A stretch of 64,000 nt of DNA from an uncultured Oscillospiraceae bacterium. GTDB taxonomy: Bacteria > Bacillota > Clostridia > Oscillospirales > Oscillospiraceae. Below the pieces are notes generated by a model. The model had not been told where the DNA came from and did not search any database. It worked only from the letters and a program-made list of their open reading frames with translations. Below, piece by piece: positions 115 through 43,347 of this stretch. A program made the translations under genes and the position numbers. Location of the stretch: positions 1-64,000 of the forward strand of contig CANQRM010000003.1 in NCBI GenBank assembly GCA_947626265.1, in the 5' to 3' direction. Numbering within the stretch: position 1 is the stretch's first letter; the number at the start of each line of letters is the position of its first letter.

Positions 115-1374
115 TTACACCTTTTCCCAGATGGTGGCAACGCCCATGCCGCCGCCGATGCACAGGGTGGCAAGGCCCTTCTTGGCCTCGGGGCGCTTGA
201 GCATCTCGTGGATCAGGGTGACGATGATGCGCGCGCCGGAAGCGCCCACGGGGTGGCCCAGGGCGATGGCGCCGCCGTTGACGTTGACCTTGCTCATGTC
301 GAAGCCCAGCTCACGGGCCACGGCGATGGACTGGGCCGCGAAGGCCTCGTTGGCCTCGATGAGGTCCATGTCGTCGATGGTCAGGTCGGCCTTCTTGAGG
401 GCCTGACGGGTGGCGGGCACGGGGCCCACGCCCATGATCTTGGGATCCACGCCGCCCTGGCCGTAGCTGATGAGCTTCGCCATGGGCTTCAGGCCATACT
501 TCTTCACGGCCTCGCCGCTGGCCAGGATGATGCAGGCGGCGCCGTCGTTGATGCCGGAGGCGTTGGCGGCGGTGACGCGCTGGACATGCTTCTTGGTGTC
601 GGCCTCATGGACCTGGGTGGGCTCAAAGGTGTGGACGATCTCGTCCTCCACGCCCTCAGGGCCTACGGGGAAGGCGCCGCGCAGCTTGGCGATGCTCTCG
701 GGGGTCACGCCCTTGCGGGGGAACTCGTCGACCTTGAACTCGATGGTCTCCTTCTTGACCTTCACGGGGACGGGGACGATCTCGTCGTCGAACTTGCCGG
801 CGGCCTGGGCGGCCTCGGTCTTCTGCTGGCTGGAGGCGGCGAAGGCGTCCAGCTCCTCGCGGGTGATGCCCCACACGTCGCAGATGTTCTCAGCGGTGGT
901 GCCCATGTGGTAGTTGTTGTAAGCGTCCCACAGGCCGTCCTTGATCATGGTGTCCACCATCTTGGTGTCGCCCATGCGTGCGCCCATACGGGTGGCGGGG
1001 GTGGCGTAGGGAGCCATGGTCATGCTCTCCATGCCGCCGGCCACGATGATGTCGGCGTCGCCGGCGTTGATGGCCCGGGCGCCCTCAATGACGCTCTTCA
1101 TGCCGGAGCCGCAGACCATGCCCACGGTGTAGGCGGGAACGGACAGGGGCAGGCCGGCCTTGATGCCCACCTGGCGGGCAGGGTTCTGGCCCTGGGCGGC
1201 GGTGAGGATGCAGCCGAACATCAGCTCGTCCACCGCGTCGGCGGGGACGTTGCCGCGCTTCAGGGCTTCCTTCACGACGATGGAGCCCAGCTCCACGGCG
1301 GGGGTCTTGCTCAGGGTGCCCTGGAAGCTGCCGATGGCGGTACGGCAGCAGGATACGAGATAAATGTCTTTCAC
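115..1374 (-). CDS. thlA: Acetyl-CoA acetyltransferase (thiolase)
   Basis: Condenses two acetyl-CoA to acetoacetyl-CoA, the first step of butyrate formation, or runs in reverse; cytoplasmic. All catalytic signatures are present: nucleophilic Cys88 in VCGSG, His374 in [14 protein letters not shown] and Cys405 in CIGGGMG. At 419 residues it is longer than the usual 390-395. The excess is a charged stretch at about 237-266, between the KLRGAF and [10 protein letters not shown] motifs. The start is a GTG preceded by AAGGAGG at 9 bases spacing. It is divergent from a butyryl-CoA:acetate-type CoA-transferase, which fits a fermentative role. The family assignment is secure. Biosynthetic versus degradative direction cannot be read from the sequence. 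Confidence 0.95.
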
Positions 1375-42912: not shown

Positions 42913-42949
42913 GCCCCCGGGACTGCGGTCCCGGGGGCTTGTCTTTTTT
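42913..42949 (+). terminator. Terminator of dnaG-rpoD
   Basis: GCCCCCGGGAC (42913-42923) and GTCCCGGGGGC (42928-42938) then TTGTCTTTTTT: a perfect 11-bp stem and U-run. Confidence 0.92.
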
Positions 42950-42973
42950 GCGCAGGTATGATATCCTGCTTTT

Positions 42974-43190
42974 GGTGCTTCGGCACCAGGGCGCTGTACA
43001 ACGGCAGGCGGTTAATCACACTCCCTGAAAGGGGGTGTGGCGTATGCCTATTACGCTGACGTTACATATCGGAAGATATACGATAACGTTGACTGTAAGA
43101 AGGACGAACCGCCACCGGGCAGGGTGACGGTTCAGTTCTAGAACTGTAACCAACTCGGGCTAACCGCTTGTCACAGCGCCCTTTTTGTGT
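42974..43190 (+). ncRNA. Structured RNA with embedded mini-ORF (type I toxin mRNA-like)
   Basis: GGTGC-TTCG-GCACC hairpin at 42975-42989, then AGGGCGCTGT (42989-42998), which pairs with ACAGCGCCCT (43172-43182). GGCAGGCGGTTA (43003-43014) pairs with TAACCGCTTGTC (43161-43172, with wobbles). CTTTTTGTG follows as a U-run. Inside, CACACTCCC (43017-43025) pairs with GGGGGTGTG (43031-43039), covering the ORF ribosome-binding site, and CAGTTCTAGAACTG (43133-43146) is a perfect palindrome. A consensus promoter faces it from the far end. No promoter of its own on the plus strand is clear. This is the only content of the 440-base rpoD-hrcA gap before the CIRCE promoter. Confidence 0.55.
43044..43127 (+). 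CDS. 27-residue peptide, putative type I toxin
   Basis: ATG 8 bases behind GGGGG, 27 codons, stop TGA. N-terminal half alternates hydrophobic and polar residues (MPITLTLHIGRYTITLTV), followed by a basic tail (RRTNRHRAG). An amphipathic segment with a cationic end is compatible with membrane-active type I toxins, but no known family is claimed. The ribosome-binding site lies in a 9-bp hairpin and the whole ORF is inside a folded transcript. Confidence 0.45.
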   Translation: MPITLTLHIGRYTITLTVRRTNRHRAG

Positions 43191-43194
43191 GTTC

Positions 43195-43224
43195 ATTATA
43201 GACCGGACTATGCTTGTTTGTCAA
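43195..43224 (-). promoter_or_regulatory. Consensus promoter antisense to the mini-ORF RNA
   Basis: TTGACA (43224-43219), 18 bases, TATAAT (43200-43195) on the minus strand. Transcription would start near 43188, at the 3' end of the structured element, and run through it. No ORF exists in that direction, so the product would be an antisense RNA. Confidence 0.75.
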
Positions 43225-43293: not shown

Positions 43294-43347
43294 TTGACAT
43301 ACACTGAAAGACGTGGTAAATTAGCACTCGGAAAGAAAGAGTGCTAG
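43294..43347 (+). promoter_or_regulatory. Heat-shock promoter with CIRCE operator
   Basis: TTGACA (43294-43299), 17 bases, TAAATT (43317-43322), and the CIRCE element TTAGCACTC-N9-GAGTGCTAG (43321-43347) directly at the start of transcription. HrcA, encoded next, is the known repressor of CIRCE. Confidence 0.95.

Follow-up and report, generated by a model that had tools for sequence, protein, structure and literature searches.

The gap between rpoD and hrcA in the window, by which we mean the whole stretch of 64,000 nucleotides analysed here, is occupied by a compact convergent promoter pair flanking a structured RNA with a 27-codon ORF. The ORF lies on the plus strand at 43044-43127, where it had been proposed, with its ATG at 43044 and its TGA stop at 43125-43127, and encodes the peptide MPITLTLHIGRYTITLTVRRTNRHRAG. 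Ahead of it, the ribosome-binding site AGGGGGTG (43030-43037) sits within a predicted hairpin at 43017-43039, which the original prediction had placed there with 9 pairs and which has 10 in our fold. The two ends of this RNA had been described as complementary, and the predicted fold, together with covariation, gives an outer long-range stem of 42989-42996 with 43174-43181 and an inner one of 43008-43017 with 43158-43167. A U-run follows the closing stem at 43182-43186, as claimed, and the facing promoter of full consensus is found on the minus strand at 43224-43195 (TTGACA at 43224-43219, an 18-base spacer, TATAAT at 43200-43195). These positions had been predicted to within one or two bases.

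Three things had been missed, namely a sense promoter, a third stem around the stop codon (43106-43133) and membership of a family. As read from the sequence, the sense promoter spans 42939-42967 (TTGTCT at 42939-42944, a 17-base spacer, TATCCT at 42962-42967); it has mismatches at 4 of 12 positions, carries a TG at 42959-42960, one base ahead of the -10, and overlaps the U-run of the hairpin that comes after rpoD. Taken with the closing stem and its U-run, it suggests a toxin mRNA of about 214 nt (42974-43187), which would begin with the hairpin GGTGC-TTCG-GCACC (42974-42987), predicted by folding and present in several close copies. The stop-codon hairpin is a helix of 10 pairs supported by covariation and may act as the terminator of the antisense RNA. 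Promoter and hairpin together would give a minus-strand transcript of about 100 nt (43188-43091) ending past the hairpin, with a weak U-run, GTCCTTCTTA. The statement that no ORF exists in the antisense direction is literally false, since mechanical ORFs of 44 and 45 codons occur on the minus strand; across the 43 copies scoring at least 150 bits, the longest minus-strand ORF varies from 17 to 52 codons. Before hrcA, at 43321-43347, is an inverted repeat, TTAGCACTC-N9-GAGTGCTAG, which resembles the CIRCE operator of the HrcA regulon.

Around hrcA, 29 loci of the genus were compared, and five of them hold the element, in one case inverted relative to hrcA. The rpoD end is present on the same locus in only 13 of the 29, four of which have the element, so that contig ends account for some of the cases in which it is missing. 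The inverted element (L291, 571-764) keeps an upstream terminator-like hairpin of its own. Extra sequence is seen in six of the 11 rpoD-hrcA intervals inspected (L291, L297, L298, L299, L306 and L307). One of them, L299, has an HTH_3 regulator (546-728, minus strand; Pfam 1.3e-15) facing a 50-codon ORF that has no Pfam match (880-1029, plus strand), and sequence resembling this pair was recognized by eye in the other five; the regulator and the 50-codon ORF are both absent from the rpoD-hrcA gap of the window.

Copies, fold and promoters of the family

The same genome contains another copy (G000:C2:14254-14466, 76% identity by blastn), and blastn matches were obtained in 23 of the 99 genomes of a sample of relatives, the element's own genome counted. 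A covariance model, R1, was built from 24 aligned copies (193 positions, 37 pairs). Within the order, and with the own genome again counted, R1 at E ≤ 0.01 per genome matches 81 of 395 genomes, which belong to 41 of 172 genera; about four of the 81 would be expected by chance if the rough E-values hold. Within the phylum, with the own genome counted here too, it matches 17 of 398 genomes, in 13 of 271 genera, at E ≤ 0.001. Strict covariance filters lose weak matches, and distant members are under-counted because all searches use R1, which was built from the element's own class.

A pattern for the stop hairpin matched at least 119 stretches, 80 of which (L122-L201) were scanned, and was found on 19 viral contigs. 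The titles of these 80 loci include Oscillibacter, Gemmiger, Evtepia, Pseudoflavonifractor, Dysosmobacter, Oscillospiraceae and Lachnospiraceae, besides others. R1 matches 97 of 99 hairpin-pattern loci, in some cases in part only, and every one of the 19 viral loci is among the 97. Copies may stand in tandem, and among the matches listed the contig L124 alone has at least five; arrays of three to five copies were observed in L124 (Lachnospiraceae bacterium UBA3287), L074 and L044. At the copy in Vescimonas fastidiosa no gene is listed in a gene table that is incomplete. L031 and L319 are both NZ_AP023416.1 of this species, a record of 860,917 bases called a plasmid, which looks like part of a chromosome because dnaA, dnaN, recF, rnpA and rpmH are present.

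Family-wide counts were made on a set of 191 copies from 165 loci, 105 of the copies being chosen without the hairpin pattern and 86 coming from hairpin-pattern loci. Partial, truncated, reverse-strand, duplicate and some low-scoring rows are omitted from it, and three copies lack clean downstream sequence. The ORF picker returned none in 11 of the 191 copies, one of which (L044_1793) has an ORF by eye; some wrongly picked ORFs remain in the stop-hairpin counts, and six were dropped from the hydropathy counts.

The plus strand of the element folds with a minimum free energy of -100.3 kcal/mol (z -6.5), and none of 200 dinucleotide shuffles does as well. The minus strand folds well too (-89, z -6.45), so folding energy alone cannot tell the strand. 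A covariance search for the fold in relatives, proposed earlier as a check, was run, and compensatory changes are present: in the alignment of 24 copies 98.3% of the stem cells are paired, and nine of the 37 pairs have changed on both sides. None of 500 shuffles comes up to the observed values, be it for pairing, for the number of doubly changed pairs or for covariation, and when the partner is slid by one to three columns pairing falls to 36-49%. Further standard pair types, at 24 against 26.4 in shuffles, are not above the shuffles in these 24 copies. In the same alignment the outer long-range stem has eight pairs (two doubly changed, 99.5% of cells paired), the inner one 10 (one doubly changed, 98.8% paired) and the stop-codon hairpin 10, of which four are doubly changed; the ribosome-site hairpin contributes six scored pairs (one doubly changed, 95.8% of cells paired). 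Predicted fold and covariation describe a putative toxin mRNA that is closed, with the ribosome site hidden and the 5′ and 3′ ends paired. An A-C apposition on the plus strand would read as G-U on the minus strand. The plus strand has 87 G-U and 8 A-C among its stem cells, a count somewhat biased towards G-U because the long-range fold was predicted on that strand; the excess is large and points to the mRNA as the folded RNA under selection.

The antisense promoter lies outside the covariance model and so serves as an independent check. It is present with at most one mismatch in 12 in 160 of 188 copies, as against 0.1 copies expected when these flanks are shuffled by mononucleotide; the copies are related, so that the 160 are not independent events. 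Mostly it stands 8 to 16 bases past the RNA frame. At the same threshold it is found in 85 of the 103 copies not chosen by the hairpin pattern and in 75 of the remaining 85, and it is at the expected place in 48 of 51 copies of 35-60 bits and in 4 of 14 copies below 35 bits. To judge from these copies the sense promoter is less uniform. Counted within one searched stretch per copy, it has at most one mismatch in 12 in 76 of 186 copies (0.1 in shuffles) and four or more in 60 of 186; an extended -10 motif occurs in 118 of 187 copies, as against 9% in shuffles.

All 109 ORFs of the element's peptide class have their stop codon within the hairpin, a result due in part to the way in which they were selected; so do 59 of the 71 ORFs outside the class. 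In 12 bases spanning the hairpin base, a count that includes stem bases, the minus strand has at least six T in 102 of 109 class copies and 49 of 71 others, and the plus strand in 56 of 109 and 20 of 71. The lysine codons ahead of the stop would then double as the U-run of the antisense terminator.

The peptide and its class

Comparison of the copies indicates that the short ORF, preceded by a ribosome site, is under coding constraint. Its frame is open in all 24 aligned copies, as against 20 and none for the other plus-strand frames and 16, none and three for the minus-strand frames across the ORF region, and the indels inside it are of 6 and 3 bases. Over 105 ORFs of the class, the three codon positions differ at 0.33, 0.23 and 0.57, and the uncorrected pN/pS is 0.48 in the part before the stop hairpin. 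Conservation of the frame in homologues, proposed earlier as a check, holds within the peptide class; family-wide, ORFs differ from one class to another, which makes the RNA the better conserved of the two.

The class is defined by an N-R-H ending, which is encoded within the stop hairpin and is invariant in 55 peptides, partly by construction because of this definition and because 76 of the 109 class ORFs came from the stop-hairpin scan, whose pattern spells N-R-H in frame. The peptides of L049 and L054 end right at the hairpin without an N-R-H tail, and that of L150 is likewise shorter; the part before the hairpin therefore seems to be the working part.

A structure model was made for a 31-residue class member from an alignment of 55 sequences. 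It places strands at residues 5-11 and at 14-20 (mean pLDDT 79.3, 92 for residues 11-20, pTM 0.35). The class of the peptide at 43044-43127 is accordingly predicted by this model to be a β-hairpin with a basic tail. The β moment exceeds the α moment in 92 of 92 class peptides, which is weak evidence alone because 49 of 64 other peptides behave in the same way, and the lengths of the stretches compared differ. Type I toxins are usually, though not universally, small hydrophobic membrane helices. The peptide at 43044-43127 does not have this trait, its best 15-residue Kyte-Doolittle mean being 0.80; a mean of at least 1.6 is reached by 18 of 92 class peptides and by 58 of 64 distinct peptides outside the class.

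The original prediction recognized no known toxin family, and this stands for the peptide at 43044-43127 in Pfam, NCBIfam, PHROGs and PADLOC. Four class peptides gave no match in the first three of these collections and two gave none in PADLOC, and a profile of 55 class peptides matched none of the PDB sequences. The peptide of L032 has a sub-threshold similarity to MpPF26 (E 0.022).

Unlike peptides on one RNA frame

Distant members keep the RNA frame and encode other peptides, mostly hydrophobic. The groups outside the class have I-x-A-K-like endings, VTYSEL or VTYAEL near the start, or short KK/KKK endings, and there are others. One of these peptides, from L112, is a confident member of Hol_Tox (4.3e-11) on the RNA frame; other Hol_Tox-looking peptides fall below the Hol_Tox cut-off. 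A protein-profile search for Hol_Tox (PF16935, putative holin-like toxins) yielded 30 loci, and the 10 best R1 matches among them all lie over the ORF on the same strand, with E from 4.9e-5 to 0.066 in 90,738 bases, several of these loci coming from the same genera. The remaining 20 gave no convincing R1 match. In several Hol_Tox loci a further hairpin is seen by eye between the frame and a downstream -10-like sequence.

The strongest case of unlike ORFs in alike frames is L044, with four tandem copies. Copies 1501 and 1793 are identical at 113 of 120 positions of promoter and leader (94%) and at 71 of 80 of the 3′ stem and antisense promoter, whereas their ORFs are 51.1% alike, compared with a shuffled mean of 48.0 and a maximum of 55.4; one of the two encodes MRITLHIGAFTVTIIVKRRNRHPGR and the other MVTYSELFQLLMFLVAFAGLILQLSKRK. 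Mixed neighbouring copies also occur in L045, L184 and L243. From these alignments it appears that unrelated tiny peptides have been swapped within one RNA frame. We lean, by a little, towards a broader statement, that one inherited frame, made up of convergent promoters, a locked leader, a stop hairpin common to both RNAs and a closing 3′ stem, is a cassette that exchanges toxins of unrelated fold, among them a β-hairpin class of type I toxin, and that the conserved part is the RNA and not the toxin.

The frames of a type I system might instead be alike by convergence, with no exchange of ORFs within one inherited frame, an explanation that we regard as rather unlikely. With R1, scores of the Hol_Tox loci do not exceed 21.0-33.1 bits, and for these loci convergence may hold; bsrG of SPbeta is unmatched (best partial score 6.7 bits), as are the 50 kb around yonT. 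The L044 array is different, as convergence cannot, on its sequence, explain near-identical flanks around ORFs that are alike at shuffle level, and the mixed neighbours in the other three loci speak in the same direction.

Type I loci are commonly recognized by their toxin. If the cassette reading is true, what defines the present type I family is its RNA frame, while the peptides can be exchanged; the frame being the conserved part, a search for it uncovers small peptides that a protein search misses. The reading also raises the question of whether one antisense frame can silence any short ORF put into it. For gut Clostridia, R1 and the peptide class described above are now at hand.

A candidate type I toxin-antitoxin family

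At gathering score, no Rfam 15 family lies over the element, and 20 loci of relatives gave only a tRNA; at E up to 10 nothing convincing was found on the element. BsrG (RF01412) scores 10 bits on it against a gathering score of 55, and has no match in the element's own genome. Among the papers searched, no title or opening part of an abstract describes the RNA family, and the peptide motifs were not found in the texts searched. On this sequence evidence the element is outside BsrG and Hol_Tox, and no Rfam family fits it.

Its architecture has counterparts in several known systems. In bsrG/SR4 of Bacillus subtilis, a convergent antisense RNA is described as pairing with the 3′ part of a toxin mRNA whose ribosome site is partly sequestered, first contact being made through the antisense terminator loop (PMC6562991). 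The element has the same convergent arrangement at the 3′ part and, as predicted from sequence, a sequestered ribosome site, but the bsrG toxin is a membrane peptide, whereas a β-hairpin is predicted for the peptide class of the element. The account of aapA/IsoA in Helicobacter pylori gives several chromosomal copies, a locked mRNA, a long-range 5′/3′ interaction and an antisense RNA (PMC6733600). Likened by description only, the element has multiple copies and a predicted locked mRNA with 5′/3′ pairing, in a different phylum; set against aapA/IsoA, the putative antisense RNA of the element overlaps the 3′ half of the mRNA and has a hairpin in common with the stop codon. Convergent RNAs are also a feature of Fst with RNAI and RNAII (par of pAD1), where toxin and antitoxin RNAs have a terminator in common; this likeness too is by description only, and neither Pfam nor NCBIfam matches the peptide at 43044-43127. 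For Clostridioides difficile, the toxins of type I systems are summarized as small peptides, 34 to 59 residues long, that have a transmembrane domain and a charged C-terminal part and are under an RNA antitoxin (PMC6563280). By description, the element resembles them in belonging to Clostridia and encoding a small peptide with a charged C-terminal part, and differs in having 27 residues and a predicted β-hairpin. Hol_Tox may be linked to the family through L112, which combines the frame with a confident peptide, and through the R1 matches over 10 of 30 ORFs; the peptide at 43044-43127 has no PF16935 match. A holin-like toxin gene on pSOL of C. acetobutylicum is reported with a mapped transcription start and 41.2% identity to the antibacterial Tmp1 (PMC9045289).

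Both transcripts, antisense repression, toxicity and target are what we infer, the mechanism being drawn by comparison with bsrG/SR4 (PMC6562991) and aapA/IsoA (PMC6733600) as these are outlined there. The mRNA from the sense promoter, about 214 nt long, would be locked as soon as it is made, with its ribosome site in a hairpin and its ends paired, and the convergent promoter would yield an antisense RNA of about 100 nt ending at the stop-codon hairpin. By analogy, pairing of the antisense RNA with the 3′ half of the mRNA may lead to decay, keep the mRNA closed, or both, and the peptide may be made when antisense RNA is scarce or the 3′ end of the mRNA has been trimmed. Harm to the cell would then follow from the peptide, with the membrane as its most likely site of action. 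The inherited unit would be the RNA frame, in which the ORF between leader and stop hairpin is exchanged: many distant members have hydrophobic peptides that probably span the membrane, and the element's class has a predicted β-hairpin peptide.

The type I reading with which the locus was first put forward is supported comparatively, by covarying stems, a kept frame, a conserved antisense promoter, toxin-like relatives on the same frame, tandem copies and copies on viral contigs. Two of the outcomes named in advance as refuting it, a lack of compensatory changes and an ORF not kept along with the RNA, were looked for and the opposite was found, in the second case within the peptide class. Comparison has established the promoters, the stems, the frame and the occurrence of unlike ORFs in near-identical frames. 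Known systems have a locked mRNA, antisense pairing at the 3′ part or long-range 5′/3′ pairing, as described for bsrG/SR4 and aapA/IsoA (PMC6562991, PMC6733600), and where sequence can tell, the element seems to have the general type I features, except the usual membrane-helix peptide. Against the type I reading are a peptide that is less hydrophobic than usual toxins and has no match in the four protein collections, the weak antisense terminator, a sense promoter that is often poor, the scarcity of the antisense promoter at its place in copies below 35 bits, the count of further pair types, and a long-range stem predicted on the plus strand, where this favours G-U. On balance we consider it likely that these elements form a type I toxin-antitoxin family that is new and whose toxins can be exchanged.

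We think it distinctly unlikely that the locus is a regulated small-peptide gene without a toxin, whose product serves the cell, for example in a stress or phage response, and harms it only incidentally on over-expression. The predicted fold of the class, a soluble-looking amphipathic β-hairpin rather than a membrane helix, would suit such a peptide, as would copies kept in frame, but hydrophobic peptides resembling toxins are found on this frame in further lineages, and even in copies next to one another, and two locking layers with an antisense promoter are what would be expected for something harmful. A mobile, MITE-like repeat with inward promoters and a short ORF by chance would explain dispersed and tandem copies and an optional, once inverted one at the rpoD-hrcA site, but is very improbable: the stems show covariation and a bias towards the mRNA strand, the ORF is under coding constraint, both promoters are kept and no clean insertion ends were seen in the sites compared by eye.

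Apart from the type I reading itself, three copies (L144, 1336-1556; L034, 482-644; L017, 814-999) have a 5′ half unlike that of the family and keep the 3′ half and the antisense promoter; they could be remnants or antisense RNAs acting in trans.
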